From: Bacteroidota bacterium
GTDB taxonomy: Bacteria; Bacteroidota; Bacteroidia; Chitinophagales; Chitinophagaceae
Direction: 5' to 3'
DNA length: 64,000 bases
Assembly: GCA_947454025.1 (NCBI GenBank)
Contig: CANGIZ010000001.1
Span: 1-64,000, forward strand
Part shown: in pieces, positions 14,230 to 64,000 of the stretch
How positions within the stretch are numbered: the stretch's first letter is position 1
Layout: each line of letters begins with the position of its first letter
Translations under genes and position numbers: made by a program
The notes under the pieces: generated by a model
What the model saw: only the letters and a program-made list of their open reading frames with translations
What the model was told of the DNA's origin: nothing
Database searches by the model: none

Positions 14230-14520
14230 TTAAGGATTCAAATTGCTAATGCTGTGGTCTATTTCTTTAATATACTGGTCGATCTTTTTTACCAATTTTG
14301 CTTTTTCAGCGGGATCCATGCTTGCCCCTTGGTTCATTAGGGCCGCAGTTAATTGAGCCTGCCCTTCTTTCACTTTCTGCTCTAAATCCTGTTGAACCGA
14401 AAGTTGTTGCGTCGCAGCCATTTTTAATTGATGATTTTCTTTTTCCAATTGGGCATACTGCTTTAATAAAGCGGAAAGCTTTTCTTGCAAATTTGCTATG
14501 GAATTATGTAAATCAACCAT
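14230..14520 (-). CDS. Small coiled-coil protein (possible ZapA-associated division factor)
   Basis: 96 aa heptad-rich ORF located directly between pheT and zapA. Confidence 0.7.
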   Translation of the reverse strand: MVDLHNSIANLQEKLSALLKQYAQLEKENHQLKMAATQQLSVQQDLEQKVKEGQAQLTAALMNQGASMDPAEKAKLVKKIDQYIKEIDHSISNLNP

Positions 14521-14555
14521 TGATCACCAGGTATTAAATAGATAATTGAATATAG

Positions 14556-16967
14556 TTATTTTCTAATTTCTGCTTGGATATTTTTCTCAAACAGTTGAAT
14601 CAGCTTTTTCATCATAGGTTCCATTTCTGCATCCGTTAATGTTTTATCCGCAGCATTAAAAACAAAATTAATGGCTACTGATTTTTTCCCTGCACCTAAC
14701 TTATCACTTTCAAAAATATCGAATACACGTGTCGCACTTAGCGCGGCCAATTTAGCTTCTACGATACATGCTTCAATTGCTTCGTAAGGCGTTGCTTTGT
14801 CAATCACCAATGCTAAATCTCTTTCAACAGAAGGATATTTAGACACTTCCTTATATACTACATGTTTGCTTTGATATGCATTTAACAACGCTGCCAAATC
14901 AAAATTAATATAATACACCGATTGCTTAATACCAAAAACTTGCAGCTTTTTACTGCCTTGCATTTCCAAATGACCAATCGTCTTTTTATTCCAAACCAAT
15001 TCAGTCAATCCATTGGCATTTGTTTTTTCTTGCACTCCTTTAATTCCCAATAATTCAACTATCGCTTTTGCAATTCCTTTTGCAACAAAATAATCCTGGT
15101 CAGTTCCTTTTGTTCTCCAACCATCAGCCTGTTGTTTTCCAGAAAGATAAATGGCCAATTGTTCGGCTTCGTAATATTTACCAGCGTTCGACTTTCCGTA
15201 TACTTTACCCATTTCAAAAAACGAAATGGCATTGTTTTGTCTATTTAAGTTATAAGCAATGGTTTCCAACCCTGTCTCTAACATACTAGGTCGCATCACA
15301 TCTAAATCGGCACTTAAATTATTCAACATTTTTACCGATGAAGCAATCACTTCCTCGCTAAAATACGCACTGTTGGTAATAGAGTTGGTCAAAATTTCGG
15401 TAAAGCCACGACCCACTAAATAGTTGGCAATTTTCTCTTTGAATTTTTCTTTTTGTTCCAATGGATCAATCGATGGACTCATTGTAATGGAACTTGGTAT
15501 TTCAATATTATCCAACCCATCAATACGCAATACTTCTTCCACTAAATCGGCAGGCAAACTTATATCAGGCTTATGATGCGGAACTGCCACTTCAATACTT
15601 TCTGCAGCTTCTTTTATTATTTCGAAACCTAAACTCGTTAAAATTATTTTTACTTTTTCGGCAGGATATAATTTACCACTTAACTTTTTCAAATAAGCAT
15701 AGGTCAATACCACTGTTTTTTTAGTAGCCGGGCTTGGATAAACATCTACCACCTCGCTACATTTACCACCTGCTAACTCTTGAATCATTTGAGCAGCACG
15801 CTCTAATACATTCACTGTACCTGCAATATCCACGCCTTTCTCAAAACGAGTGGCAGCATCGGTTCTAAGGCCATGGTGTAATGAAGTTTTACGCACATGT
15901 ATATTTTCAAACCAAGCACTTTCTAAAAATAAATTTTTTGTATTGGCAGACACTCCACTTTTTAATCCGCCAAACACACCTGCAATACACAATGGCTTTT
16001 CGCTATCGCTAATCATTAAATCATTCGCAGCTAATTTACGCTCTGTGCCATCTAGTGTAACAAATAAAGTACCTGCTGGATATTTTTTAACCACCACGGT
16101 TGCATCCTTAATTTGGTCCGCATCAAATGCATGCAATGGTTGTCCTGTTTCATGTAAAATATAATTGGTGATGTCTACAATATTATTAATACTGCGTACC
16201 CCAATGGCGTTTAATTTGTTTTTTAACCAGCTAGGAGATTCTTTCACCACCACACCTTCAATCACCATACCACTATATCTTGCGCATGCTTTTTGATCTT
16301 CAACAATCACTTTAAAAGGCTTTACAGTAGCGTCTTTTGTGGCATTTGATTTAAATGGACTTACTGCTTTTGTTGGCGTTTCATGATAGGATAAATAAGC
16401 GCACACATCTTTAGCAACACCATAATGACTCATGGCATCCATTCTGTTCGGCGTTAAACCAATTTCATACACCCAGTCTTGATAATATTCATATAAATCT
16501 GCAACAGGAGTGCCTGCTTTTATATTGGCATCTAAAACAATAATCCCACCATGGTCATCACTCAATCCAATTTCATCTTCGGCACAAATCATTCCCTCAC
16601 TCTCTTCACCTCTAATTTTTGCCAACTTCATTGTAATGCCCGCCTCCGCATTTTTTGGATAAATAGTAGTACCCACCGAAGCAACCACTACTTTTTGACC
16701 CAATGCCACATTGCTAGCACCACAAACAATATTTAATGGACGATCTCCTCCAATATTGACCTTTGTTAATTTTAATTTATCGGCATTCGGATGCTGACTT
16801 AACTCCACCACTTCTCCCACTACCAAACCGGCAAGTCCCCCTTTGAAATTTTCAATTTTTTCCAAAGATTCCACTTCTAATCCAATCGAAGTCAATATAG
16901 TAGATAATTGTTCTGGGCTAATCGTTTTTGGTAAATATTCACTCAGCCAGTTGTAACTAATGGTCAT
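14556..16967 (-). CDS. pheT: Phenylalanine-tRNA ligase beta subunit
   Basis: N-terminal tRNA-binding domain, B3/B4, B5 and FDX-ACB regions; 803 aa. Confidence 0.96.
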   Translation of the reverse strand: MTISYNWLSEYLPKTISPEQLSTILTSIGLEVESLEKIENFKGGLAGLVVGEVVELSQHPNADKLKLTKVNIGGDRPLNIVCGASNVALGQKVVVASVGTTIYPKNAEAGITMKLAKIRGEESEGMICAEDEIGLSDDHGGIIVLDANIKAGTPVADLYEYYQDWVYEIGLTPNRMDAMSHYGVAKDVCAYLSYHETPTKAVSPFKSNATKDATVKPFKVIVEDQKACARYSGMVIEGVVVKESPSWLKNKLNAIGVRSINNIVDITNYILHETGQPLHAFDADQIKDATVVVKKYPAGTLFVTLDGTERKLAANDLMISDSEKPLCIAGVFGGLKSGVSANTKNLFLESAWFENIHVRKTSLHHGLRTDAATRFEKGVDIAGTVNVLERAAQMIQELAGGKCSEVVDVYPSPATKKTVVLTYAYLKKLSGKLYPAEKVKIILTSLGFEIIKEAAESIEVAVPHHKPDISLPADLVEEVLRIDGLDNIEIPSSITMSPSIDPLEQKEKFKEKIANYLVGRGFTEILTNSITNSAYFSEEVIASSVKMLNNLSADLDVMRPSMLETGLETIAYNLNRQNNAISFFEMGKVYGKSNAGKYYEAEQLAIYLSGKQQADGWRTKGTDQDYFVAKGIAKAIVELLGIKGVQEKTNANGLTELVWNKKTIGHLEMQGSKKLQVFGIKQSVYYINFDLAALLNAYQSKHVVYKEVSKYPSVERDLALVIDKATPYEAIEACIVEAKLAALSATRVFDIFESDKLGAGKKSVAINFVFNAADKTLTDAEMEPMMKKLIQLFEKNIQAEIRK

Positions 16968-17021
16968 ATAAGCACTTTAATGTATAGCTTCAAAAATAAG
17001 CAATTTTTTGGCCCCTAACCT

Positions 17022-48425: not shown

Positions 48426-49694
48426 TTAGTACCCCAAGTAAATAAAAGTATTTACGGATAAGCTTTGCGGCGTAATATCTAACGCTGTACCACTACCCCC
48501 TGAAGAAACTGTTACTGTATGTGCATGTGCACCATTGGTTGTAGTTGAATTTGTACTTCCCCAAGATCCACCCCACCAGGTATTACCAGATCCATTGTTA
48601 TAAGTTTGATCTCCATTAGGTCTAGAGAATGTATGTGAGTGATCGCCATTTGTTGAAGTAGTAGCAGTAGGAAAATTGATATTGGGCAGATTGGCTTGTG
48701 AAATAGTTTTACTATTGCTACCCGTCACGGAACCTATTGTGGTTCCATTTTGAACTAAGAATGCATTATTTGCATTGGGTAAATTTGTTCCAATCCCTAA
48801 ACTAGTAGCTTGAGTTTGTTGTGAAGAAGACAATGTGGACTTAGCTCTTCCATCTAATTTAATCCAACCATTATGATCGGCGGTTTGAAAACCCGTTTTG
48901 ACATCACCATAATTAAATTGATTAAATGGTGCATTTCCAGAAATCACTTGCGCTTCAAACCATGGATAGGAACCTGTTGTACTAAAATCACCACTTCCTC
49001 CTAAAGAAGTTACAAAACCACTTGTTAGAATTCTATATGAAATTACTGTTTGAACTGTTGTAGTTATAATAGCTTCAGACAAGCCCATTGATGACGAATA
49101 TCCGGCAGCATCCCCAGGCGCATAAATTGCAGACAAACTACCTAACCAGGATGAAGCGGTTTCATTATACCAAGAAAATGCAGGTCTTGAATTTGCCCCA
49201 TTGCTCATTAATGTTGGCACTTGAGCCAATAAACGATAAGTCCTTCCTGCAGCCAACGTAATTTGACCAGTAGTAGTATTCAAGGACATTTCTTGTCCAG
49301 CTAAATTATCAACTTGTGTGAAAACCACCGTACCACCAGCAGCTATTCCTGTAGTTTGACCAGAGGATCTTGATCCGCGCAATATAGATGCACTCACTCC
49401 AGATCCACTCGCTGTTGAAATGGTTGCCCAACTTGTTCCATTCCAATAATAATACCCCGCAACAAGCCCAGCATTATTTCCTGTATTGTAAACTAATAAC
49501 CCAGTGGCAGGATTTGAAATGGTCGTATTATCTGTTCCACTTGTTAAAGTAACACGAGGTGGTAAAAATCCTTTATTGGTTGCACTCACCTCCAACTTTG
49601 CAGAAGCATCGGGTGTGCTGGTACCTATACCTGTTTGGGATTTTGCTATAAAAACCATGCACAAAAAATAAAATAAGATTCCTAACTGTTTCAT
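48426..49694 (-). CDS. Secreted fibre-like protein: QTGIGT module + phage tail collar/HxH-like C-terminus
   Basis: AQ/SQTGIGTSTPDASAKLEVSATNKGFLPPRVTLT; GWIKLDGR, NGDHSHTF, NGAHAHTV, PQSLSVNTFIYLGY; start set at MKQLGILFYF. Confidence 0.8.
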   Translation of the reverse strand: MKQLGILFYFLCMVFIAKSQTGIGTSTPDASAKLEVSATNKGFLPPRVTLTSGTDNTTISNPATGLLVYNTGNNAGLVAGYYYWNGTSWATISTASGSGVSASILRGSRSSGQTTGIAAGGTVVFTQVDNLAGQEMSLNTTTGQITLAAGRTYRLLAQVPTLMSNGANSRPAFSWYNETASSWLGSLSAIYAPGDAAGYSSSMGLSEAIITTTVQTVISYRILTSGFVTSLGGSGDFSTTGSYPWFEAQVISGNAPFNQFNYGDVKTGFQTADHNGWIKLDGRAKSTLSSSQQTQATSLGIGTNLPNANNAFLVQNGTTIGSVTGSNSKTISQANLPNINFPTATTSTNGDHSHTFSRPNGDQTYNNGSGNTWWGGSWGSTNSTTTNGAHAHTVTVSSGGSGTALDITPQSLSVNTFIYLGY

Positions 49695-49746
49695 TTTAGC
49701 AACTTTAAATATTTTTAAATAGTACCTCTTTATTAAGATAGCAAAG

Positions 49747-51375
49747 TTATAATAATCTTTCAATGGAGATGAAGTTGTTAAGATAACTTGGACCCACCAT
49801 GAGTGTAATTCTATAAAATCTTGAATTCGTCGTATCTCTTAAAAAATAATTAGCCACATCCCCACTTTGAGCAAAACCCCAGGTTGTGCCTAGGTGAGCA
49901 AAAGTTGAATTTATATTTTGAGTAACATCCGAAAAATAGGTAAAAGCATTTGTACCTGATGCACCATTATAGCTAGTATAAGCTGTTACCATTCCTGTAA
50001 ATGCAGTACCTGTTGATTTTATTTGCAAACTTCTTGCTAATCCATTAGGAGCCATTTGAACTTGTATATCCCCAAGCGTAACAGGCACACTTTCATTCAC
50101 AAATGCTGCTGCTTTTATCGCAACATTCCCACTTGGATCGGATAAATTAATTTTACCTGTCACATTCACATTTCCAGTAACATCTAAAGCTTGTGTGGGT
50201 GCATTATTACCTATCCCCACACTTCCAGTTGTATTGTAGGTATTTGTTCCTGAGAGTATCCATGGATTGATAATTGCTGAGGAACCGATTTGTTCAATGG
50301 TAGCATAGGTATAATTGGGAACTGTTTTAGCACTTGTAGTTGAAAAAACTACATTTAAAGTAATGGTAGTATTTACAGTAGGCGTATACACAATATCTGT
50401 TATCCCATTACCTGTAGCTGCAGTCCCATAATTGGTGCTAAGAATTAATGCCCTATTCCCTAATATATCTCCAGCCGCATTTTTCCATGCAATATCTATT
50501 TCAGAAGAACTTGCATTGGAACCATCTAAGGAAACACTTCCTGTTAATCTATAGGTTTTACCAGCAGTTAAGGTGAAATTCCCATTGGATGAATTATAAG
50601 GAATGTTCCCACTATTGATGGTATTGAAAACAATATTATCTCCAGTATTAACCGTTTGTATTGTTGTTCTATTTACCGAAACATAATCCACTGTTTGTCC
50701 TGTTACTGGTAAATTTCCTGCAACAAGTTTATAATAAACTCTATCAAAATCACCTGCATCTCTATTACCTGTTGTAGTTACATATACATTATAAGTCGTA
50801 CCAGATTGAAGATTCGCTTCGACCTTCCCATTGTACTCTACATGCACCGTATTGTTTATACTATATTGAGAATCGACAGCTAGTACAATGGTACCTTGTC
50901 TAACTTTAAATGTAATAGAAGCACTTGAAAATCCAGTACTTGAAAAATCAAATAAATATCTGCCAGAAACTGGAACTGTAAATTTATAGCCTGTAGCATT
51001 TGCAATGGTACTATCGGCGGTAGCATTAGAATAGGACTTACTATACAACTTTACCATATCCATTGACGTCACTCCATTTCCCGCTGAGGTAGCCGTAGCA
51101 ATGGTTGCCCAGTTGGCACCATTCCAATAATAATAACCTGCCTGTAAGCCGACTGATCCTAAATTATAAACTAATAAACCTTCAGCTGGCGATGCAATAG
51201 TGGTGGCATCTGTGGCGCTTGTTAAAGTTACACGGGGAGGTAAAAATCCTTTATTGGTAGAGTACACATCCAACTTTGCAGATGCATTAGGCGTGGTGGT
51301 ACCAATACCGGTTTGTGCATTCAAGTGTAAATTCAACGCAATCAACAATCCTATTAATAATAATTTCTCTTTCAT
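49747..51375 (-). CDS. Secreted fibre-like protein with QTGIGT module
   Basis: Signal peptide then QTGIGTTTPNASAKLDVYSTNKGFLPPRVTLTSATD..GYYYWNGANWATI; later VGIGNNAPTQALDVTGNVNVTGKI. Confidence 0.8.
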   Translation of the reverse strand: MKEKLLLIGLLIALNLHLNAQTGIGTTTPNASAKLDVYSTNKGFLPPRVTLTSATDATTIASPAEGLLVYNLGSVGLQAGYYYWNGANWATIATATSAGNGVTSMDMVKLYSKSYSNATADSTIANATGYKFTVPVSGRYLFDFSSTGFSSASITFKVRQGTIVLAVDSQYSINNTVHVEYNGKVEANLQSGTTYNVYVTTTGNRDAGDFDRVYYKLVAGNLPVTGQTVDYVSVNRTTIQTVNTGDNIVFNTINSGNIPYNSSNGNFTLTAGKTYRLTGSVSLDGSNASSSEIDIAWKNAAGDILGNRALILSTNYGTAATGNGITDIVYTPTVNTTITLNVVFSTTSAKTVPNYTYATIEQIGSSAIINPWILSGTNTYNTTGSVGIGNNAPTQALDVTGNVNVTGKINLSDPSGNVAIKAAAFVNESVPVTLGDIQVQMAPNGLARSLQIKSTGTAFTGMVTAYTSYNGASGTNAFTYFSDVTQNINSTFAHLGTTWGFAQSGDVANYFLRDTTNSRFYRITLMVGPSYLNNFISIERLL

Positions 51376-51431: not shown

Positions 51432-53657
51432 TTACCTTACCCAATACCAAATGATGCCTGGATTTTGATTGGGTGTACCACCTGTACCTGCATCAGAAAT
51501 CCATGGCGAGGGAGAATAGTAGCTATTGTTCGACAGCAATGTACCCCACCAATTGGCAGTTCCAGATGAAAGCGTGATAAATCCTGTTCCAGAACCCGCT
51601 GTAGAACTATACCAAGGCATCCTTTGTTGCATACCATTATTACTACCAACATAACTCCAATTTCCAAACATGGTATTTAAAGTTACATTGGTTTGTGTAT
51701 TATCGGTATTAACAAAACTATAGTTGCCATTGGCTGTCCAAATACCTCCATAATTTCCTCTACTGCCCGCATCTATCATATACTGAAATCCACTTGTACT
51801 TTGTTTGATATAATCTGCCCATCCTATGATTGAATAACTTGCAGTTGAAGTACTTGTGACATCGGCAGTAACTGTAAAGGGAATTTTGGTGTTGTAAGCA
51901 ATTGCATTAGCATAAGTCCAAACCGAATTAGAAGAATTTTTCATAATCAATGTCCACCCTCCTCCACTTGTTGTCATATCTGCATATATTTTAGTAGGCA
52001 CCCCTCCATTGATATTGGCATTTTTGATCCAATAAAATCCATCTGTTGAATTCGGATAATCTTTTTTAATTTGATAAGCACTGGTAGAAGCAGTACTGGG
52101 ACTTAAGCCATCGTTTTCGGCATAAAATTTAGCGCGGTAGGCGTTATAATTATTAGTAATTTCTTGTTGTGTTAATTCTCTTTTATAAATCTTAAAATTG
52201 GATACTTGAATATTCATCAACCATCCTAAATCATTGCGCCAACTTGCAATTCTTCCAGCACCTGCATTAAAAGTTGCATTGCTTGCATTAAATGTTCCCA
52301 GCAGTTGTGTTAATGATTGACTCACTCCATCTACATAAATTTTATTATTTGTTAGTGTTCCGGAATTCATAACAAATACTAGATGCTTCCAATAACCCAC
52401 AATACCTAAATAGTTCACTTGAGTACTACTAATACCATATAAATCTCCAGCAGCACTGTTAAATCCAATATTACCTCCACTCGTCCACGCATCATACAAT
52501 CCAAATCCAAAGTACATAGCACCACCAGGTGTTTTTAAGGAGTTGGTTTTAACCCACATCTCTACAGTTACCACATTCGTATTTCCAATATTCGCAGTAA
52601 AATCGGCATAACTACTACTACCATCAAATGAAATATTACCACCATTAGATGAATTATAGGTTGTTGATGTTGTAGTTACGTTGGATGCGTTAGTTGATAA
52701 ATCATTCCATGTATTTCCTGTGCCACTATAACTTGATGTATTACCTGCATCTAAATTGAACACCAATCCCGAATTACTAAAACAAGTAATGATTACCGAT
52801 CCATCTCCAGTATTGTTCATTAATCCAAATGAAGAAATACCGGATGTTGATTTAGTGGAGCCGCCTGCTCCACCACCGGTTGCGCCACCGCCTCCCGCTC
52901 CACTTCCACCACCAAAATATCCTCCTCCACCTCCACCACCACCATTCCATGTATTTACACCACCGTCGGATCCACCTGCACCACCACTAATATCATTTCC
53001 ATTACTAGCTGCAGTTCCAGTGACTACATCAAATGCATTTCCTCCAACACCTACCGCTGATAAAGTTGCTCCATATCCATATTGATACCTACCACTTACT
53101 AAATAATTAGTAGTTCCCTCATTACCATTACTTGCAGTACCAGCAGATGTATTTGCTGCAGCTCCACCAGTATAATCCGTTCCTGTTGTAATACCAGCAC
53201 CACCCCCACCTCCACCTGCAACTACCAATGCATTTGCATTTGCAGGAGTACTACTTGTAAACACACCCGACAATCCTCCTCCAGCTCCACCATAACTAGA
53301 TACAACACTTGAACCACCATTGCCACCATATCCATATTTGGCAGTTGCTGATTGCCCGGGGAATCCTCCAACAACTATATATAAAACTTGGCCTGGTGTT
53401 ACATTTAAAGTGGTTGTAATATTAGCTCCCGCACCACCAACTTGTCCTCTTCCACCAGTACCACCTTTTGCGCCCACTGCTTTTACTTGTATACTGGTCA
53501 CTTTATTGGGCACAGTAAATTTTTGTAATGCACCCGTATATTTAAAGGTTAAGGAGTCCGTCAAAAATGGCTTGCGCACCGCTAAATTTTGAAATGCAAT
53601 TTGCGCATTCGAATCAATCGACGTAAAAAAGATAAATATGAAAATGAGTTTGCGCAT
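51432..53657 (-). CDS. Secreted multidomain adhesin: glycine-rich domain + LamG-like + fibrinogen-like C-terminus
   Basis: GGGGGGGGYFGGGSGAGGGGATGGGAGG; SLKTPGGAMYFGFGLYDAWTSGG..NNKIYVDGVSQ..FKIYKRELTQQEI; DGFYWIKNANINGGVPTKIYADMTTSGGGWTLIMK; start set at MRKLIFIFIF. Confidence 0.8.
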   Translation of the reverse strand: MRKLIFIFIFFTSIDSNAQIAFQNLAVRKPFLTDSLTFKYTGALQKFTVPNKVTSIQVKAVGAKGGTGGRGQVGGAGANITTTLNVTPGQVLYIVVGGFPGQSATAKYGYGGNGGSSVVSSYGGAGGGLSGVFTSSTPANANALVVAGGGGGGAGITTGTDYTGGAAANTSAGTASNGNEGTTNYLVSGRYQYGYGATLSAVGVGGNAFDVVTGTAASNGNDISGGAGGSDGGVNTWNGGGGGGGGYFGGGSGAGGGGATGGGAGGSTKSTSGISSFGLMNNTGDGSVIITCFSNSGLVFNLDAGNTSSYSGTGNTWNDLSTNASNVTTTSTTYNSSNGGNISFDGSSSYADFTANIGNTNVVTVEMWVKTNSLKTPGGAMYFGFGLYDAWTSGGNIGFNSAAGDLYGISSTQVNYLGIVGYWKHLVFVMNSGTLTNNKIYVDGVSQSLTQLLGTFNASNATFNAGAGRIASWRNDLGWLMNIQVSNFKIYKRELTQQEITNNYNAYRAKFYAENDGLSPSTASTSAYQIKKDYPNSTDGFYWIKNANINGGVPTKIYADMTTSGGGWTLIMKNSSNSVWTYANAIAYNTKIPFTVTADVTSTSTASYSIIGWADYIKQSTSGFQYMIDAGSRGNYGGIWTANGNYSFVNTDNTQTNVTLNTMFGNWSYVGSNNGMQQRMPWYSSTAGSGTGFITLSSGTANWWGTLLSNNSYYSPSPWISDAGTGGTPNQNPGIIWYWVR

Positions 53658-53658
53658 T

Positions 53659-54288
53659 TTAAAAAATACTATCTCCAAATACAAAACCAGTAGTTGTTGT
53701 ATTCATCACTAAACCAATCACACTATTAGTAGTTCTAGTACTATTCCCATTTGCAGAGTTTAAAGTGACTCCAGTTCCTGCTGCCAGAATAATTTGACCA
53801 GCACCTCCTTGAATAAGTTGACAAGAAAATCCAACTGGTAAAGAATTGGGAACCGTAATGGTAACTGCAGATGCAGCACTAATTAAAAAGATTTTATTAT
53901 TATCTGTATTTGCCAAATTGAATCCAACTGTTTTACTATTGTCAATAATTAATCCATTAGCAATAGCAATCCAACTTGTTCCATTGTAATAGTAATAGCC
54001 AGGTACAACTTTATAAGGATCCGTTGTAGTAGTGGCTGTATTGTAAACCAATAAACCAGCAGCCGGTGTGATGGCTGAACCTAAAGCATTCTTTATGGTT
54101 GTATTGTCGTTAGTTCCTGTTAATGCAACACGCGGAGGCAAGAAACCTTGCTTAGAAGAATTCACTTCTAACTTTGCAGAAGCATCGGGAGTTGTTGTAC
54201 CAATGCCAGTCTGCGCTTTTACTATAGTACATGAAAATAGTATGATTACTATTAACCCGTGCTTTAATATGTTTAAATAGTTCTTCAT
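53659..54288 (-). CDS. Small secreted QTGIGT-module protein with phage-fibre-like beta C-terminus
   Basis: QTGIGTTTPDASAKLEVNSSKQGFLPPRVALTGT..PVGFSCQLIQGGAGQIILAAGTGVTLNSANGNSTRT. Confidence 0.8.
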   Translation of the reverse strand: MKNYLNILKHGLIVIILFSCTIVKAQTGIGTTTPDASAKLEVNSSKQGFLPPRVALTGTNDNTTIKNALGSAITPAAGLLVYNTATTTTDPYKVVPGYYYYNGTSWIAIANGLIIDNSKTVGFNLANTDNNKIFLISAASAVTITVPNSLPVGFSCQLIQGGAGQIILAAGTGVTLNSANGNSTRTTNSVIGLVMNTTTTGFVFGDSIF

Positions 54289-55739
54289 TATCGGATATAA
54301 ATTTCAACTCTTGCTGTCCTATTGATTCCGCCAAAATCTTGACAACAACCAATATAATCTCCAGCAGAATAACTTCCATAAGCCATGCCTATTCCTCCCG
54401 AAACATCATTAGAGCCTTCATCTCCATTTGGGAATAAAGCAAGTGGCGCATTTTCATTCCAAGAAAATCCCCATCTAATATTTGCATTCGAGGCATTGGT
54501 ATAATTAAATCCATAAAACCTTACAGAGGTTTGTGAACTAAATACCCCTCCATTCCATCCTGAATAAGATTTTGCATCACCAAAAAATAATCTACTGGCG
54601 CTATAGAAAAAATTAACAGGTGTAATTCGTATGCCATTATTAAAATTATTCTGCAACCAACACCAGTTATTATAGGTGCCATTGGTATTGATACTTCCAC
54701 CTGTTGTACTTGAATTAGTATTCCAAGGAATATCAGGCCATAATGCCATTATATCTTTTGCATAATAATAATTCATAGCTTCAAATTTGGCATCACCATC
54801 ATTGCGATTTGTATTCGCTGGATTTAAGGTATTTATACTTGTCCAATAACTACTTGAATATGAAAATGTAGTGCCACGTGTCGCTTTCATCATCATCATC
54901 CAACCTCCACCATCAGTTGAAGTATTTAAAAGACAATAAAGTTGTGTTGGTCCTACATATGGTAGGTTAATCCAATACACCCCATCTGTGTGATTGTTAA
55001 ATGCATTTTGAAGATACTGAGCATTCGGCGCTGCTTTTGCCGAAGTAGTACCGTCCATGTCGGGACTTGTAATTAATTCTTGTAAATTTTGTTTCCAACT
55101 TTGAAAATAGGTATTTGCTGGAAGTAAACTTGTATATGAACTTGGTGCTGTATTTTGTATAGGGGATCTCCAATAAAATCTTAAACCAAAACCACCAGCA
55201 CCTTGTTGCATTCTTATAGTATAGGAATATGATTTTCCAGCAACAACAGAATAAGTGCCAGTATGTGTACCCAAAGCAGGAACTGCTTGACCTAGATAAG
55301 TGCCAATCACTGAATTTCCTTCAATAAGAAAATCACTTGCATCATCCGACTCTAAAGTAAAAGTATAGGTACCAGTTTCTTGCGGAATAAAAGTGCCCTG
55401 TATTTTAAATGCAAAATAATTTCCACTATTAGGAATATTAATTCCAATTGAACTTAATTCACCAGTTGATTGCCAATCTAATATACGTGAAGAGTTTGTT
55501 CTTCCTTGTTGATATAATGTGGTGTTTGAATTTGCATTGCTAAAAATATTATCCATGTCAGATTTACTTGCAGCCACTACAGGGTATTGATTTGCAGAAC
55601 CATTACCTGCTTGTGTACTATACACCCAATAATCAAATTGAACCTTAGGCTGTTTTTGAATTGAATGAAAAGGAGTTAACACTTGTGCATGTACAAGGCC
55701 AACCATTAGCATTCCTATTAAAAAAAACAGATTTTTCAT
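54288..55739 (-). CDS. Secreted adhesin: PA14-like + fibrinogen-like domains
   Basis: FIPQETGTYTFTLESDDASDFLIEGNSVIGTYLG..YYSYTIRMQQGAGGFGLRFYWRSP-type PA14; DGVYWINLPYVGPTQLYCLLNTSTDGGGWMMMMKATRG. Confidence 0.8.
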   Translation of the reverse strand: MKNLFFLIGMLMVGLVHAQVLTPFHSIQKQPKVQFDYWVYSTQAGNGSANQYPVVAASKSDMDNIFSNANSNTTLYQQGRTNSSRILDWQSTGELSSIGINIPNSGNYFAFKIQGTFIPQETGTYTFTLESDDASDFLIEGNSVIGTYLGQAVPALGTHTGTYSVVAGKSYSYTIRMQQGAGGFGLRFYWRSPIQNTAPSSYTSLLPANTYFQSWKQNLQELITSPDMDGTTSAKAAPNAQYLQNAFNNHTDGVYWINLPYVGPTQLYCLLNTSTDGGGWMMMMKATRGTTFSYSSSYWTSINTLNPANTNRNDGDAKFEAMNYYYAKDIMALWPDIPWNTNSSTTGGSINTNGTYNNWCWLQNNFNNGIRITPVNFFYSASRLFFGDAKSYSGWNGGVFSSQTSVRFYGFNYTNASNANIRWGFSWNENAPLALFPNGDEGSNDVSGGIGMAYGSYSAGDYIGCCQDFGGINRTARVEIYIR

Positions 55740-55744
55740 TCGTA

Positions 55745-56386
55745 TTAATTTGACATATCACCCGAAGAAATATAAACACCCGAAGCAATGCATACTAGCG
55801 TTAATATGGAATACTGCCCAGCTGTTTTGGTGAAACCATACCTATTATATATAGTAACACCCGATGCAGTTAAACTTACTTGCCCAGCTCCTTTTTGAAC
55901 AATCAAACAGTTAAATCCAACAGATAAGGAAGGCACTGTAACTGACACACCCGTTGCACTATTAATAGTAACTACTTTGCCATTATCGGAATTCGTTAAT
56001 GTATATGCACTACTCTGATCATTCATTACAGATCCAAAATTTGCAATGGTACTTGTAGTTCCATTTCCTGTAATTGTATTTGAAGTACTTGATCCTATTA
56101 AATTGATCCATGCTGATCCATTATAATAATAATATCCTGGAATAACATTGTTAGGTGCAGAACCTGCTGTATTGGTATTGTAAACAATTAAGCCTGTAGC
56201 AGGTGATGCGATAGTGGCTACATCAGTTGTACTTGTTAATGATACACGAGGTGGCAAAAATCCTTTATTGGTTGCAGTCACATCTAATTTTGCCGAAGCA
56301 TTAGGCGCAGTGGTGCCAATACCAGTTTGTGCATTGGCTTTCATTAATGCACAACTTGCTATAAATATAAATAGTATTTTTTTCAT
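55745..56386 (-). CDS. Small secreted QTGIGT-module protein with phage-fibre-like beta C-terminus
   Basis: QTGIGTTAPNASAKLDVTATNKGFLPPRVSLTSTTD..VGFNCLIVQKGAGQVSLTASGVTIYNRYGFTKTAGQY. Confidence 0.8.
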   Translation of the reverse strand: MKKILFIFIASCALMKANAQTGIGTTAPNASAKLDVTATNKGFLPPRVSLTSTTDVATIASPATGLIVYNTNTAGSAPNNVIPGYYYYNGSAWINLIGSSTSNTITGNGTTSTIANFGSVMNDQSSAYTLTNSDNGKVVTINSATGVSVTVPSLSVGFNCLIVQKGAGQVSLTASGVTIYNRYGFTKTAGQYSILTLVCIASGVYISSGDMSN

Positions 56387-56400
56387 TTTATGATGATTTT

Positions 56401-57834
56401 TTAGAGCCCATGTCTTGACTTGGTCTGATTAAATTTTGAAGTTATTTCCGTTTGAGTTAATTCTCTATTATAAACCTTGAAAAAAGTCATATACATATTT
56501 TGAGGGTAACTATTATTAAATGTCCAACCCCCAATTCTTCCGGTTCCATTACTAAAATTAATATTTGAAGTACTTTGTGCACCTTGAATCTGACTTAAAC
56601 TTTGAAGCACTCCGTTAATATAAATTTTGTTACTTAAATACGATCCTGTGTTAATAACAAAAGTGTAATGCTTCCAAGTATTCAATAAACCCAAATTTGT
56701 TACCTGAGTTGTTGTTAATCCATATTGATCCCCTGCTCCTGAATTAAATCCCAAAGCGCCACCAGCAGTCCAAATATCATATAGGTTAAACCCCCAAAAC
56801 ATGCCTCCACTTAATGCAGTTGGAAAAGCCCACATTTCAATTGTTAAAGTAGTGGCTCCGTTTAAGTCAAAAGAAAAATCTGTAAATCCACTTGCTCCTC
56901 CATTATAATAAATACTTCCACTCGCCGCCGCATTATAAGTAGCGCCTGCTGCATTCGTAGCAGTTTTTGCAGCACCAGAAATATCATACCAAGTGTACCC
57001 AGATCCTGGATAGCTTAAAAAATTATTTGAGGCATCTAACATTAACTTCAAATCATAGTTGGATTTTTCTCCAAGGTAAATTTGATTAATTTCTCCAGCT
57101 GAAAGTGATGATGAATAATATTTAACATCGCTTAATAAAAAACTTCCAGCAGCTCCCGAACCCATGTTGGTCACATTGTCATACCCTGCAATAGCAAAGT
57201 ACTGCGATGTAGTTAATGATGACATTGCAGGTCCATCGCGAGTGTAGGAACTTGTACTAATTAAAGAACCGTCTAAATATGCAGCAATACTATTTCCAGT
57301 ATAGGTTAAAACAACATGATGCCAAGAATTTAATGAAATAGCTGAAGCTGATGATATGATTCCATTTTTAGGCCATACGGAAAATTTCAGATACCCATTA
57401 ACCATTTCTATATCTGCGGTATGATAGGAACTTGCTATAACAGTTGAATTTAAATCATCTAACACTATACCATTTAATGAAGTAGGATTAAACCATAAGC
57501 TAATGGTAAAAACTCCTGTTCGTGTCGAACTGGACACAGGTGCATAATAATTCTTGAAATCACCCATCATTAAATATTGTGCATTTGAAGCTGAAAATTT
57601 GATATAGCCTGGATCCGGATAAAAAGTTGGGGTTCCTACAAGTGTTGCAGGTAAATTTAATCCTGTTGTACTTACTACACTTGTGGTAGAACCTGTAAAG
57701 CTCGTTGGGTTTGCAAAATTATAATCAACAATCAAATTATTTTTTGAAACAGTATTTGGATAGGCCGGGCCAAAGAATTGAGCTTGAACAAATTGAGCTA
57801 GAAATGATAAAATAAATAAAATTGTATACTTCAT
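56401..57834 (-). CDS. Secreted adhesin with two LamG/concanavalin-like domains
   Basis: FTISLWFNPTSLNG..GSLISTSSY and TTLTIEMWAFPTALSGGMFWGFNLYDIWTAGGALGFNS..NNKIYINGVLQ-type repeats. Confidence 0.8.
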   Translation of the reverse strand: MKYTILFILSFLAQFVQAQFFGPAYPNTVSKNNLIVDYNFANPTSFTGSTTSVVSTTGLNLPATLVGTPTFYPDPGYIKFSASNAQYLMMGDFKNYYAPVSSSTRTGVFTISLWFNPTSLNGIVLDDLNSTVIASSYHTADIEMVNGYLKFSVWPKNGIISSASAISLNSWHHVVLTYTGNSIAAYLDGSLISTSSYTRDGPAMSSLTTSQYFAIAGYDNVTNMGSGAAGSFLLSDVKYYSSSLSAGEINQIYLGEKSNYDLKLMLDASNNFLSYPGSGYTWYDISGAAKTATNAAGATYNAAASGSIYYNGGASGFTDFSFDLNGATTLTIEMWAFPTALSGGMFWGFNLYDIWTAGGALGFNSGAGDQYGLTTTQVTNLGLLNTWKHYTFVINTGSYLSNKIYINGVLQSLSQIQGAQSTSNINFSNGTGRIGGWTFNNSYPQNMYMTFFKVYNRELTQTEITSKFNQTKSRHGL

Positions 57835-57835
57835 T

Positions 57836-58504
57836 TTAATTACTTAGTTCTCCTGAAATTACAACTACATTACTTCCCAAGTGCAAAATTGTCACTAAGG
57901 CATTTTGCCCGATTGATTTTGTATAGCCATTTCTATTCACTGGAGTTAATCCACTTCCAGCAAAAGTGATTTGTCCTGTACCACTTTGGAATATCATACA
58001 ATTAAATCCATCAGGCAAACCTGTAGGGATGGTTATTGTAACAGCAGTCGCAGATGTCATATTTATTACAGATCCATTATCTGATGCAGCCAAAGTAAAT
58101 CCTGTACTTTTTGAGTTTACTAAGGCGCCAAATCCAGATAATTTTGAACTCGTTGCATTACCTCCAATTAAGTTCCCAGTTGTTGAAATATTACCTGTTG
58201 TAAAACTAATATCATTACCAGTTTTTGTCCAATCAGTATTTATCCTTAACCAAGCAGGTGTTGATGATGTTCCCGTATTCACATAAAAACCAATTACCCC
58301 ATCAGTCTGATAAACCATCAATCCATTAGCTGGTGAAGTAATGGCTGAACGCTGTGCATTTGTCATACGTGGCACTAAAAAGCCTTTGTTTGAAGAGGTG
58401 ATATCCAATTTTGCAGACGCATCTGGTGTATTGGTACCAATACCAGTTTGAGCAACAGTTTTTGTTACAAAAAATAATAAGATTATATAAATACTATGCT
58501 TCAT
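57836..58504 (-). CDS. Small secreted QTGIGT-module protein with phage-fibre-like beta C-terminus
   Basis: QTGIGTNTPDASAKLDITSSNKGFLVPRMTNAQRSAITSPANGLMVYQTD..PDGFNCMIFQSGTGQITFAGSGLTPVNRNGYTKSIGQ. Confidence 0.8.
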   Translation of the reverse strand: MKHSIYIILLFFVTKTVAQTGIGTNTPDASAKLDITSSNKGFLVPRMTNAQRSAITSPANGLMVYQTDGVIGFYVNTGTSSTPAWLRINTDWTKTGNDISFTTGNISTTGNLIGGNATSSKLSGFGALVNSKSTGFTLAASDNGSVINMTSATAVTITIPTGLPDGFNCMIFQSGTGQITFAGSGLTPVNRNGYTKSIGQNALVTILHLGSNVVVISGELSN

Positions 58505-58509
58505 CTGAA

Positions 58510-60111
58510 TTATTGTTTAATTAAGAGTCCTAAACGCATTGATGGATGCCCATACCAATTAGTAGGAGTTACTCTTACATATTTCGCATATTGCACTGTT
58601 GGGAATAAAGTATTAACAAGTGTAGTTTGGTCGGTATTTAAATTGGCATTGGTGAAAATAGTTGTCCAATTGTTATTGTCTAAACTAACTTCCACATTGA
58701 CTTGTGTAACCCATTGAGCCATATTTTGCCTTCCTTGCGTTACAATCCCAGTAATGTAAACAGGAACAGGATAAATAAGCGTTAATGAATGACCTTGAGA
58801 TGCAGCAGCTGCAGACCAACTTTGAATTGAGTTAAGCCAAGGTGTATAATGACCATAAGTTCCACTCCAATAAGCAAACGCATCATTATTCCAAACATCA
58901 GAAGCACTCCAATATAATGGGGTGTCATTGGTTGATGGACTATGCGTAATAGTATTAGTAGCACTAGATGTACCAGGCTTCCATTTGCTAGTTGCATCTG
59001 AAAATACTATTTTACCAGTTCCACTCATAATAAGTTTATTCGTATTTATACTAGTAGCAGTGTTAATTGTTACAGTATGCCCATCATTAATTTGCAAACC
59101 TCCAAAAGCATTTCCAATATTAGATATGGTAGTACTATTCAAACTATTTGTTGATGATAATGAAAATGCCATATCATTATTATGAACAACATAACTAGCA
59201 TACACCCCTGTATAATCCGACCCAGACGGATAGTCAGCGCTTATTTCTACTAAATAACCACTTACACTTCCACTATTTCCATCTGCCAAATCATTCCAAC
59301 AAGTTGCACCACCCGATTTAGCTACTACACAATCTTCCCCATTCCTTGATCCATCGGAATTGTTCGGTTCTCCTGAACACCAATTAGCATATTGTCCTGA
59401 AACAGTTATCCCAGTTGAGGCATATGCAGTATAGGTTGAATTGGTAATTCCTGATACAGATGTATTCCAAAAATTAGTGTTTGCTTCTGGACCCGCATCA
59501 TATACCCATCTTCCTTCATTAGCAGCATCAGACATGGCTACCCAAATATTATTATTGGATATATTATTATTGATAAAATCATTTTCGGATTGAGAGGTAA
59601 TTGTTGCTAAATAAGGCGTCTTACCTTTAAATGAAGCTTGAGCTGATGCTCCCGCTTTCGCATTGGTATAAGTAATTGATCCACTTATAAATTTATAAAA
59701 GTGTTTATTCGTTGGATTGTAAACATAACTAGCATCATATTGAGAAACTTCAACATTAATTCTCACTGCAGTTTTAGTAGCACCCATAGAAATTGTCATG
59801 GCAGCAAGTGCGTTATTAATATTATCTCTAGTTCCATAAAATACAATGCTTGAAACATTCGTCCAAGATAAATAACCATAATTACGTGTCAACCCCGTAG
59901 TTGTTGGAAAACTTAAAGTTGCACCATTAACATAATCTAAACTTATACTAACTAATAGATTATCTGAATTGTTTGCCCAGTTCACTACAAAACCAGCAGC
60001 ATTTGTATTACTTACATTTGCCTCAATTGTTAATGGGGCTGGCGCAGTAATCATTTGACCAAAAGAAGTTACTGTCATTAAAAAAAAAGAAAAAATAAAT
60101 AAACACTTCAT
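58510..60111 (-). CDS. Secreted protein with C-type lectin-like domain and discoidin-like C-terminus
   Basis: KHFYKFISGSITYTNAKAGA..TPYLATITSQSENDFINNNI..WVAMSDAANEGRWVYDAG..YANWCSGEPNNSDGSRNGEDCVVA..CWNDLADG; C-terminal MAQWVTQVNVEVSLDNNNWTTIFTN. Confidence 0.82.
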   Translation of the reverse strand: MKCLFIFSFFLMTVTSFGQMITAPAPLTIEANVSNTNAAGFVVNWANNSDNLLVSISLDYVNGATLSFPTTTGLTRNYGYLSWTNVSSIVFYGTRDNINNALAAMTISMGATKTAVRINVEVSQYDASYVYNPTNKHFYKFISGSITYTNAKAGASAQASFKGKTPYLATITSQSENDFINNNISNNNIWVAMSDAANEGRWVYDAGPEANTNFWNTSVSGITNSTYTAYASTGITVSGQYANWCSGEPNNSDGSRNGEDCVVAKSGGATCWNDLADGNSGSVSGYLVEISADYPSGSDYTGVYASYVVHNNDMAFSLSSTNSLNSTTISNIGNAFGGLQINDGHTVTINTATSINTNKLIMSGTGKIVFSDATSKWKPGTSSATNTITHSPSTNDTPLYWSASDVWNNDAFAYWSGTYGHYTPWLNSIQSWSAAAASQGHSLTLIYPVPVYITGIVTQGRQNMAQWVTQVNVEVSLDNNNWTTIFTNANLNTDQTTLVNTLFPTVQYAKYVRVTPTNWYGHPSMRLGLLIKQ

Positions 60112-60114
60112 CTC

Positions 60115-61080
60115 TTACTTATTTTTTGATTTACTCAACTTATTTACTTTTAAGCTCAAACTGTCTATTTGTTTTTGTTGGTCCTTAATGGCTTCAACTA
60201 ACAATGCAACTAGCTTATCATATTTTACCGAACGATATTCTTCCTTAGATTTATCTTTTGAAACGATTTCTGGAACAATTTTTTCAACCTCTTGGGCAAT
60301 AAAACCAAGTTCATCTTGTGCACCAAAATCTTTTTCTGGAAAAGCTTTTTGATTCCAATTAAAATATACACCTCTTAATGATTTTACTTTATCCAAAGCA
60401 TTTATCACTGGTCGTATATTGGTTTTAAAACGAATGTCCGAAGTGCCTGCAACCGAGTTGGCAGTAATGTCTCCATTTACATATAATTTAGTAGTAGGAT
60501 TATTGGTACCAATTCCAACATTTCCATTTTCTAATATATTTATTCCATTGGTTTCCGTAACGCCACTAAATAATCTTAGTCTTGCATTTGTAGCAGTGGT
60601 TCCATATTGATCAATAGTCCAGTCAAGTACGCTATTTGTTAAAGATTTTTTGATAGTGATTTGCCCTCCCTCATTGGATGAAGTTTGTGGATTCAAAGTA
60701 ATTTCTCCAGCAACAGTTCCGGCTGCATTACCAACTGTCAATGTGGATATTGGTGCTACCGTTCCAACTCCAACCCATCCTCCATTTGGATTTAATGCTA
60801 AATAATAAGATGTTCCATAGTTTGATTTTAACCTTGCCTGTATCCATGAAAAAGTAGATGTTGAACTTAATCCAAAATCCAACACATGCGAACCCGAACT
60901 TGGACCCAATCTTAAATTTCCATTGGCAATTGCCCCAGAATTTGCAGGATCAGCAGTAGACGTTACAACTTCAAATTTATTTACAGGCGCATTTGTACCA
61001 ATACCAGTCTGGGCACTCGCTTTCACCAAAACACAACTTGCTAAAAATATTAATAGTAGTTTTTTCATTTTGTTTTTCAA
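60115..61080 (-). CDS. Secreted tail-fibre-like protein with C-terminal S74 intramolecular chaperone domain
   Basis: SDIRFKTNIRPVINALDKVKSLRGVYFNWN..DELGFIAQEVEKIVPEIV..YRSVKYDKLVALLVEAIKDQQKQIDSL. Confidence 0.88.
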   Translation of the reverse strand: MKNKMKKLLLIFLASCVLVKASAQTGIGTNAPVNKFEVVTSTADPANSGAIANGNLRLGPSSGSHVLDFGLSSTSTFSWIQARLKSNYGTSYYLALNPNGGWVGVGTVAPISTLTVGNAAGTVAGEITLNPQTSSNEGGQITIKKSLTNSVLDWTIDQYGTTATNARLRLFSGVTETNGINILENGNVGIGTNNPTTKLYVNGDITANSVAGTSDIRFKTNIRPVINALDKVKSLRGVYFNWNQKAFPEKDFGAQDELGFIAQEVEKIVPEIVSKDKSKEEYRSVKYDKLVALLVEAIKDQQKQIDSLSLKVNKLSKSKNK

Positions 61081-61090
61081 TTACTAAATA

Positions 61091-64000
61091 TTAGAACAAT
61101 GCTCTAAATGCTATCCATTGTGTGCCGTCCGAAATAACTTTTATCCAATTGTTTGCTGGCTCTATCCCAATATTTGCAGTCGTAGCAGATGTTGTTGAAT
61201 TATCTTGAACAATAAACTGACCGCTTGTTGTTGCAATAGCTACTGAATAAGCACTCAAGTTTTTAATTGTAAACTCTTTGCCAGCAGCATTAGATGCGGT
61301 AGGCAAAGTAAATGTCAAACCTGTACCTGCACCAGAACCAACAATAACATAATTGTCATTAAGCGTTAGCGTATAACTTACTGTTTTAGTTACTAATGTT
61401 GAAACACCAGTTTGCCAAGTTGCACCACCATTCGCATCAGATGTTAAAACTTTACCAGCTGCAGCTCCTGTTGGAATAGTAACTGTGCTACTAAATGTAG
61501 CCGCTCCATTTACAGTAACAGCAGCTAGTGTTGTAGCACCAGTTACATTAACTGTAGAAGAAAATGTCGCAGCACCTCCATGAGCTGATGTAGAAGACAA
61601 TGTTGTTGCACCTGTTACATTCACCGTAGAAGAGAATGTTGATGCACCAGCTGCTAATGTTGAAGACAAACTTAATGAAGTTCCAGTTGCAGCTCCAATT
61701 ACAGGTGTTACTAAAGTTGGAGAAGTTGCAAATACTAAAGAACCCGATCCTGTTTCATCAGTAACTGCGGCATTTAAATTAGCGCTAGTAGGAGTAGCTA
61801 AGAAGGAAGCAACACCTGTTCCTAAACCACTAATACCAGTAGTTACTGGCAATCCAGTAGCATTCGTTAAGGTTGCAGAAGCTGGTGTTCCTAAAATTGG
61901 AGTTACTAAAGTTGGGCTTGTTGATAAAACTAAGCTTCCAGTACCTGTTGATGTTGTAACACCCGTGCCACCATGTGCTACATCGATGGTTGTAGCGCTC
62001 CAAGTACCACCAGTAATTGTGCCCACTGTTGCTAAATTAGAAAGTGAAGTTAATGTCGTATTTGAAGTTGCAGTTATATTTCCTGCAGTAGTAGCAGTTG
62101 TTGCATTTGCTGCATTACCTGTTGTATTTTGGTTTAAGGTTGGAATAGCATTATAAGTAATTTCTTTAGTAGTGGTGTTATAAAATAAGAAGGAAGATGT
62201 AGATGCATTGTTTACAGGATCTACATAAAATCCAGAAGCTGCAGGATTTAAACTCGTTCCACTTGCATTTAAGGCAATGCTATTTGCAGCTTGCGAATTT
62301 CCTGCAAACGCACCAATCGCAACACTATTTGCACCTTGTCCATTTTGACCAGCTGCATATCCAATAGCAACTGCTGCATCAGCTTGAGTACCACTTTGTG
62401 CAGCATTGCTTCCAATTGCAATAGAATGTGCTCCTTGTGTTCCACCTCCGGCCACATAACCGATTTTAATATTTGATCCGTTGGGGTTAAAATAGTCTGT
62501 TCCAGCAACCGCTGCACTTACTACACCTGCTCCATTCGCTTTTAATAATCCACTCACTGTGCCTGCACCACCTAAATTGCTTCCAATTACGGAGCCACTC
62601 CAAGTACCAGATGTAATTGTTCCCACGCTTGTTAAACTTGAACTCACCACATTACTTGCAAGCGTAGTTCCCGTCAATGTATTCGCATCTGCAGCAATCG
62701 TAATATTTGAACTACCATCAAACGCAACTCCATTAATATTTTTAGTTGCAGCTAATTTAGTTGCTGTAGAAGCGTTTCCTGTAACATTACCAGTAAGTGG
62801 CCCAGTAAATCCAGTTGCATTAACAGTTCCGCTTGTTACAACACTTGTTACACTAGTATTACCTAATTGAATTGTATTGTTAGCATTTACAATTGCTCCA
62901 TTACCAATAGCAGTTGCATTACTTAAATTATTTGAAGCAACATCTGCGCCATAACCAATTGTAGTAATATAGCTTCCATCTGTATTTGATTGACTTGCAT
63001 TTTCTCCAATGGCGATATTATAACTACCATTATTATTTCGTAAAGAAGAATATCCCACTCCAACATTATGACTACCGGAGGTATTATACCTAAATGATTC
63101 TGAGCCTATCGCTAAATTCTTAACACCTGATGTATTTTGCATTCCCACATTTTGGCCAAATACCATATTATCTGATCCACTAGTATTATATATTAATGTG
63201 TTTGCATTACCAAATACAAAATTAGAACTTACGGATCCGCTACCTAATCCAATTTTGATTCCATTAACGTTTATGTCACTATTAAATGTCTTAGCCCCAG
63301 CAATAGTTTGAGCTCCTGTTGACAATAAACCTGGATTCGTTCCGTCTGCAGCAGCAAATGTTAATGTGGTTCCACTTATGGTTCCTCCATTTGCGTAAGC
63401 AGTAGACGTTGTATAAGTTAATGTGTTTACACCTGCAGTAATACCAACGGTTCCTGCAGCTGTTAATCTACCTTTGCTATCCACTGTAAATGTTGGAATA
63501 GCGGTTGATGATCCATAACTTCCAGCAGTTACTGCAGTATTTGTCAAAGTAGCACTACCTGTTACATTGGACGTTCCATCAAATGCACCACTTGTATATG
63601 TTACATCTCCTGTTGTTGAAATAGTTCTTCCAGTAGCTAAACCTGTTGCGGTTCCTGATAAAGTTCCAGTTAAGTTTGTTGAACTTAAACTTGTTAATCC
63701 GGTCACTGAAGTTACCGTTCCGCCTAACGTCATTGTAGTGGCGCCTATAGTAGTTGTACTATTTGCTAATTTATTATTTGCAATAGCCGTACCACTCCAT
63801 GTGGCACCAGTAATATTTCCAGTAACATTTAAGTCACCAGTGATATTTGAATTGCCAATAAAGTTTGTTGTACCGCCAACTTCTAATTTATATCCATTAT
63901 TAGTATATGTACCACCCGTTTGTATTGTTACATTACCATTTCCCCAAAATCTAGTTGACTCAACATTAGCATTTGGAAAGAAAGATAAAGGTTTGTTTCC
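61091..64000 (-). CDS. Very large composite fibre protein with YadA-head-like and phage-tail-like repeats; 5' end outside window
   Basis: ORF track starts at internal Met (63733) but the frame stays open to 64000 (..FFPNANVESTRFWGNGNVTIQTGGTYTNNGYKLEVGGTTNFIGN..); NSVAIG repeats; SPTLVTPILGTPASATLTNATGLP. Confidence 0.85.
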   Translation of the reverse strand, partial: GNKPLSFFPNANVESTRFWGNGNVTIQTGGTYTNNGYKLEVGGTTNFIGNSNITGDLNVTGNITGATWSGTAIANNKLANSTTTIGATTMTLGGTVTSVTGLTSLSSTNLTGTLSGTATGLATGRTISTTGDVTYTSGAFDGTSNVTGSATLTNTAVTAGSYGSSTAIPTFTVDSKGRLTAAGTVGITAGVNTLTYTTSTAYANGGTISGTTLTFAAADGTNPGLLSTGAQTIAGAKTFNSDINVNGIKIGLGSGSVSSNFVFGNANTLIYNTSGSDNMVFGQNVGMQNTSGVKNLAIGSESFRYNTSGSHNVGVGYSSLRNNNGSYNIAIGENASQSNTDGSYITTIGYGADVASNNLSNATAIGNGAIVNANNTIQLGNTSVTSVVTSGTVNATGFTGPLTGNVTGNASTATKLAATKNINGVAFDGSSNITIAADANTLTGTTLASNVVSSSLTSVGTITSGTWSGSVIGSNLGGAGTVSGLLKANGAGVVSAAVAGTDYFNPNGSNIKIGYVAGGGTQGAHSIAIGSNAAQSGTQADAAVAIGYAAGQNGQGANSVAIGAFAGNSQAANSIALNASGTSLNPAASGFYVDPVNNASTSSFLFYNTTTKEITYNAIPTLNQNTTGNAANATTATTAGNITATSNTTLTSLSNLATVGTITGGTWSATTIDVAHGGTGVTTSTGTGSLVLSTSPTLVTPILGTPASATLTNATGLPVTTGISGLGTGVASFLATPTSANLNAAVTDETGSGSLVFATSPTLVTPVIGAATGTSLSLSSTLAAGASTFSSTVNVTGATTLSSTSAHGGAATFSSTVNVTGATTLAAVTVNGAATFSSTVTIPTGAAAGKVLTSDANGGATWQTGVSTLVTKTVSYTLTLNDNYVIVGSGAGTGLTFTLPTASNAAGKEFTIKNLSAYSVAIATTSGQFIVQDNSTTSATTANIGIEPANNWIKVISDGTQWIAFRALF

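Follow-up and report, generated by a model that had tools for sequence, protein, structure and literature searches.

The question raised by this locus is whether the long glycine-rich stretch of a secreted protein from a freshwater Bacteroidota bacterium is a true domain with recognizable relatives, and what part it may play in a gene cluster where the pairing with a phage-tail-fibre-like partner suggests a surface fibre with swappable sugar-binding tips. The window, that is, the whole stretch of 64,000 nucleotides analyzed here, contains the stretch within a single minus-strand open reading frame of 741 codons (ATG at 53657, stop at 51432), in which all the peptides quoted in the first-pass annotation are present. 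The glycine-rich domain (GRD) has 78 glycines among 265 residues (29%) over positions 53558-52764 of the minus strand, encoded by a mixture of GGT, GGA, and GGC codons, and is thus not a DNA microsatellite.

The protein, referred to here as the tip protein, is composed of a signal peptide, a short N-terminal segment, the GRD, and two further modules (Table 1). The Q at the mature N-terminus is typical of most Bacteroidetes SPI substrates (PMC5837995), and the segment that follows the signal peptide has a form similar to QxxxxN(I/L)A(L/V/I)xKP in the orthologues. The LamG and fibrinogen-like modules do come after the GRD, as first annotated. In the fibrinogen-like module, the assignment is carried by the initial 60 or so residues, which match NF040941 and, in the PDB, an intelectin (E=6e-5), and the AF2 model of this module has a pLDDT of 37 and no usable fold. 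Kinase, transmembrane, and EGF-like parts had no Pfam match in the tip protein, and recognized T9SS signals are absent from both the tip protein and its partner.

Table 1. Features of the tip gene and of the surrounding cluster in the window
Feature	Positions	Strand	Description	Basis
Tip protein gene	51432..53657	-	741 aa: signal peptide, N-terminal segment, GRD, LamG, fibrinogen-like	ORF, domain matches
Signal peptide MRKLIFIFIFFTSIDSNA	53604..53657	-	Residues 1-18, mature N-terminus Q	Sequence
N-terminal segment QIAFQNLAVRKPFLTDSL	53550..53603	-	18 residues, candidate docking peptide	Orthologue motif
GRD, ALK-type (predicted)	52782..53549	-	Residues 37-292 (256 residues), TNF-like strands and glycine helices	Alignments A1/A2, AF2, Foldseek
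Variable loop region between glycine runs	53070..53189	-	Residues 157-196	Low pLDDT, orthologue indels
Second variable stretch, ahead of long glycine run	52950..53039	-	Residues 207-236	Entropy profile
LamG/concanavalin-A-like lectin domain	52119..52781	-	Residues 293-513	PF13385 E=5e-13
Fibrinogen-like C-terminal domain	51435..52118	-	Residues 514-741, GGGW motif at start	NF040941 E=4e-16
Partner shaft protein	53659..54288	-	209 aa, TGIG N-terminus, phage-fibre-like C-terminal domain; stop codon 1 nt from tip gene start	PHROG virion structural/tail matches
Partner shaft C-terminal domain	53662..53931	-	Type ending GDSIF	Alignment A3
Sister tip protein	54288..55739	-	PA14 and fibrinogen-like	PF07691 E=3.5e-10; NF040941
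Sister shaft	55745..56386	-	Ends SGDMSN, 5 nt before PA14 tip gene	PHROG matches, pairing
Sister tip protein	56401..57834	-	Two LamG domains	PF13385 E=3.9e-23
Sister shaft	57836..58504	-	Ends SGELSN, 1 nt before LamG tip gene	PHROG matches, pairing
Tip-like protein	58510..60111	-	C-type-lectin-like and F5/8 type C	PF00754 E=1.5e-13; Lectin_C sub-threshold
TGIG protein	60115..61080	-	C-terminal Peptidase_S74 (endosialidase chaperone)	PF13884 E=1.2e-17
Tail-fibre-like secreted protein, 3' part	61091..64000	-	2687 aa in full, extending past the window to contig position 69154	
Two single-chain TGIG proteins closing the cluster	48426..51375	-	C1q-like (weak) and phage-collar-like C-termini	

Taken by itself, the sequence of the window GRD remains below the cut-offs in Pfam (Gly_rich_2, E=0.13; ALK_LTK_GRD, E=0.54), where its score against PF12810 is 10.6 bits, short of the curated cut-off of 24.5, and no match above the threshold was returned by phmmer against the PDB or by tblastn against phages, nor any match by a scan of genome contigs with the window sequence alone. 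Whereas these single-sequence searches were empty, the alignment of homologues connects the GRD to the ALK family. PF12810 (ALK_LTK_GRD) is matched by 22 of the 23 GRD homologues, with a best E-value of 7.9e-27, and L094, a congeneric locus, has a GRD that is 48% identical to that of the window and scores 51.9 bits against the same cut-off of 24.5. When the profile of the 23-member family was run against the PDB with hmmsearch, ALK was recovered first (E=8e-12), followed by the SCD-2 of Caenorhabditis elegans (7.6e-8) and LTK (1.6e-6), and the match with ALK is collinear over profile positions 10-249, with the FTVP strand at one end and the terminal GDGSVIIT strand at the other.

The structural prediction is consistent with this relationship. 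The AF2 model of the GRD, based on 59 homologues, is confident (pLDDT 87.2, pTM 0.88), and its top 21 Foldseek matches in the PDB are all ALK, LTK, or SCD-2 chains, with a probability of 1.00 and a best E-value of 1.6e-7, followed by the Bxb1 tail tip (9d93) and the Pam3 cyanophage fibre (7ypx/7yfw), with a probability of 0.99. Given that the window GRD falls below the Pfam cut-off and that the model reaches TM-scores of only about 0.49 with ALK, the assignment depends on the profiles, the Foldseek probability, and the intermediate sequences, which together make an ALK-type predicted fold, combining a TNF-like part with glycine helices, well supported. The ALK-like half of the first-pass annotation is therefore upheld by both model and profile. 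Its other half, which placed the domain with the phage adhesins of the gp38 type, had to be abandoned, as the S16 gp38 (6f45) reached only a non-significant E-value of 0.81 by profile and was absent among the Foldseek matches listed, which leaves gp38 as an analogy only.

The tip gene forms part of a minus-strand cluster that occupies the contig between 48426 and roughly 69154, beyond the end of the window, and is made up largely of short, phage-fibre-like TGIG shafts alternating with adhesin-type proteins. The shaft and the sister shafts match phage virion and tail families in PHROG, and signal peptides were recognized by inspection on the members that could be read from their start. The C-terminus of the TGIG protein at 48426-49763 resembles the receptor-binding domains of phage tail collars (GDHSHT...NGAHAHT...FIYLGY; PHROG 8763, tail protein), and this protein amounts to a fibre that carries its own tip in one chain. 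A T9SS type A cargo gene is found directly upstream of the gene of the 2687-aa giant fibre, and short genes of the T9SS type likewise precede the giant fibre in three other genomes (G544, G509, and G532). There are seven T9SS type A signals in the whole genome, two of which are located near shaft-tip loci; one of the two is close to another shaft-tip locus of this genome (G000:C2:85377-90143).

The pairing of shaft and tip extends well beyond the window. The C-terminal domain of the shaft (alignment A3) was found in 17 of the 62 genomes in a scan of the genus, and in a scan of the family, covering 100 genomes from 99 genera, only the window's own genome had a match. For 27 of 30 shaft genes, the gene that follows starts at a spacing of -1 to +8 nt, and its product is a secreted protein with Q at the mature N-terminus. 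A shaft of the GDSIF type lies directly upstream of the GRD tip gene in all 13 of the examined loci that have both genes, which come from Sediminibacterium, Flavobacterium, and genomes labelled as Cytophagaceae. In two loci (L133 and L130), the pair is isolated between unrelated housekeeping genes, so that shaft and tip represent the minimal unit. One of these, L130 (CALPWK020000110.1), carries a Comamonas label, although its pair is of the Bacteroidota type and lies beside topA in the same gene order as in the Chitinophagaceae metagenome-assembled genome (MAG) that contains L133, and the label is probably a binning error.

The tip protein also turned up in a scan of named genomes. It is present in Flavobacterium ammonificans GENT11, an isolate whose genome is complete (NZ_AP025183.1; PMC9302062), in Flavobacterium sp. 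Ww15, and in MAGs labelled as Cytophagaceae and Chitinophagaceae, although these labels are given as deposited and may be wrong. Over its full length, the tip protein of the window is 69-71% identical to those of other Sediminibacterium and 64-70% identical to those of Flavobacterium and of the genomes labelled as Cytophagaceae. This similarity of the cross-order and within-genus values, which is unlike the pattern of vertical descent, indicates that the pair may have moved horizontally across the orders of the Bacteroidota, a conclusion drawn from sequence comparison, for which the NuoD yardstick is only partly usable, given that some genomes provided a paralogue only.

Other arrangements of the same components were also observed. 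In Sediminibacterium G496, two successive shaft-tip cassettes (L088:11151-14322 and 14386-16984) have nearly identical shaft ends and tip N-termini and different tip domains, which looks like a recent duplication of the cassette followed by the divergence of its payload. A second glycine-rich type of tip protein, which is Gly_rich_2-like with a score of 22.9 bits, just below the cut-off of 24.3, is found behind shafts of the GGDMQ type (L096:8362-10680 and L144, G496:C6), so that two glycine-rich families occupy the tip slot. In a further locus (L095:3304-7416, G512:C97), five short genes for secreted proteins are arranged in tandem, with no shaft between them, and at least three of the five are LamG-like.

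The modules of the tip protein do not evolve alike. Mean pairwise identity among the orthologues is 73% in the GRD, 72% in the fibrinogen module, and 61% in LamG. In two genomes (G544 and G489), the shaft, the N-terminal segment, and the GRD are retained, while LamG is replaced, with identity decreasing to as little as 29%, and there is no fibrinogen module. G538 and G512, in turn, have proteins that are otherwise unrelated to the tip protein but contain fibrinogen modules with 68-69% identity to that of the window, and a tip protein of 319 aa, consisting of the GRD alone (L141, G533), is found behind a related shaft. The swapping of modules around a retained GRD implies that this domain is the base that stays constant, while the lectins are ends that can be exchanged. 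Within the GRD, entropy reaches about 1.5 bits in the loops between the glycine runs, compared with 0.22 bits in the glycines themselves, and the variable, indel-bearing loops (residues 157-196 and 207-236) overlap a stretch of low pLDDT. The first-pass annotation had described a tip domain with variable loops, and the loops do vary. The label of tip domain, however, needs revision, given that the GRD sits between the N-terminal segment and the LamG and fibrinogen modules, is conserved when these are swapped, and is, as a whole, no more variable than its neighbors.

Three other explanations of the region must be weighed against this evidence. The glycine content and the failure of the window GRD alone to reach any Pfam cut-off would both be expected of a low-complexity, disordered, or silk-like filler without a specific fold, although this is scarcely credible in view of the behavior of composition-matched controls. 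Against a profile built from 22 remote homologues, with the window sequence left out, the real GRD scores 113.6 bits, whereas the best of 1,500 controls scores 30.7 bits, a value reached by the shuffling of 10-mer blocks; the best scores were 18.5 bits when the glycines were fixed and the other residues shuffled, and -21 bits when all residues were shuffled (n=500 in each case). Filler is ruled out computationally by these shuffles, and would also be at odds with a pLDDT of 87 and with the conservation of the glycines in four orthologues of the same genus, where they are retained in 89% of the comparisons, versus 61% for other residues. The tail and virion matches in PHROG, the S74 chaperone, and the abundance of GRD relatives among phage proteins might, in turn, point to a prophage or the remnant of a contractile injection system, in which these proteins would be virion fibres. 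This origin is very unlikely for the present cluster and was rejected, as no phage genes were found in it and the members read from their start have signal peptides. The cluster is also flanked by chromosomal genes, with MarC on one side, as in three related genomes, and NADH dehydrogenase genes on the other, and the GRD subfamily of the window was searched for in viral contigs and GenBank phages and not found.

A more serious alternative is that the GRD is itself the receptor-binding tip, through variable loops at the distal tips of its glycine helices, with LamG and the fibrinogen module as accessories. The loops are the most variable part of the domain and hold the indels, tip proteins consisting of the GRD alone do exist, and recognition by loop tips has been proposed for Pam3 gp24 (PMC9608196) and shown for gp38, as described in PP01 (PMC12892980). 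Given this variability, the loops may possibly bind targets directly. As a description of the whole domain, however, this reading is rather unlikely, since two lectin-type modules follow the GRD in the window protein, it is these modules, and not the GRD, that are exchanged among relatives, and the identity of the GRD among orthologues equals that of the fibrinogen module and exceeds that of LamG.

With secretion signals on both proteins, lectin-type modules, gene pairing across genera, and an ALK-type predicted GRD fold, it is fairly likely that the region belongs, as an ALK-type domain, to a secreted tip protein within a two-gene shaft-tip unit, in which the shaft would form the fibre, the GRD the mount, and the modules the glycan binders. 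In this arrangement, the shaft would form a fibre outside the outer membrane, and may be trimeric, by analogy with phage fibres. The N-terminal segment and the GRD of the tip protein would dock on the C-terminal domain of the shaft, so that the GRD would provide a rigid mount of glycine helices joining the fibre to its exchangeable lectin tips. The LamG and fibrinogen modules, and possibly the variable loops of the GRD as well, would have as their targets the glycans of surfaces, of particles, or of other cells, while the giant fibre, the S74 protein, and the several shaft-tip pairs may provide the cell with a set of exchangeable adhesins. The N-terminal segment tracks the class of the shaft no better than does the body of the tip protein (Mantel r of 0.37 and 0.40, respectively), and the correlation is thus explained by the co-inheritance of the pair, which is why the docking is presented here as a proposal. 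A broader and more tentative hypothesis, which is plausible if somewhat doubtful, is that Bacteroidota have domesticated a gp37/gp38-like organelle, consisting of a secreted phage-fibre-like shaft, an ALK-type mount, and interchangeable lectin tips, encoded by a two-gene cassette that has moved horizontally between freshwater genera.

Pfam already lists bacterial and phage proteins under PF12810. As far as the present searches reached, three elements are new: a secreted system of cells in which shaft and tip form a two-gene unit and the GRD would be an ALK-type mount, the probable transfer of the pair between orders of Bacteroidota, and a GRD that stays constant while the lectin ends behind it are exchanged. 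The fold that receives the ligand in ALK and LTK is thereby placed in what would be a surface fibre of bacteria, modular in build and similar in fold to the tips of phage fibres. In this locus, cells would also be using the architecture of phage fibres for secreted adhesins that are exchangeable and pass the boundaries of orders, and the complete genome of the GENT11 isolate offers a small two-gene system in which to ask whether the glycine-helix lattice is a mount, a receptor-binding tip, or both.

Among the known systems, the TG domain of ALK, LTK, and SCD-2 (PF12810) is the closest in fold, sharing the N-terminal beta strands (FTVPxxVTSIxVxAxGAxGG ... VTPGQxLYIxVGG) and the terminal strand, in addition to the collinear profile match and the Foldseek probability of 1.00. 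ALK and LTK differ in their EGF-like, transmembrane, and kinase parts, none of which is found in the secreted bacterial protein of the window, and most bacterial members of PF12810 have an ATDIR motif, which the window GRD lacks. Many phage GRD proteins in BFVD are named "receptor protein-tyrosine kinase", which seems to have been carried over from the ALK/LTK label of PF12810, and are unlikely to be kinases.

The presence of an ALK-like fold in a phage fibre was established by Pam3 gp24, which is TNF-like plus glycine-rich, is similar to ALK (7LIR), and has variable distal loops (PMC9608196). Both Pam3 gp24 (7ypx) and the Bxb1 tail tip (9d93) share with the predicted structure of the window protein a TNF-like part and a glycine-rich lattice, carried on what would here, too, be a fibre. 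In Pam3 gp24, a helical trimerization shaft occupies the N-terminus of the same chain, whereas the shaft of the window is a separate secreted protein, and the tip protein has only 18 residues between the signal peptide and the GRD, with no helical trimerization domain. Pam3 also has a separate chaperone, gp25, no homologue of which was seen for the window pair. The gp37-gp38 pair of the T2 type (S16, PP01) is a comparison of how the systems may work, given that here, too, the gene of a glycine-rich adhesin directly follows that of the fibre. The gp38 itself carries a PGII sandwich with variable loops (PMC12892980) and has a beta-helix domain, while the window protein is a Sec-secreted cell protein with LamG and fibrinogen modules. 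The fibrillar and T9SS surface adhesins, such as SprB, are likewise secreted and modular, with lectin-type domains, and the cluster of the window includes a T9SS type A cargo gene, but the window system differs from them in having separate genes for the shaft and the tip, and shafts that resemble the fibres of phages.
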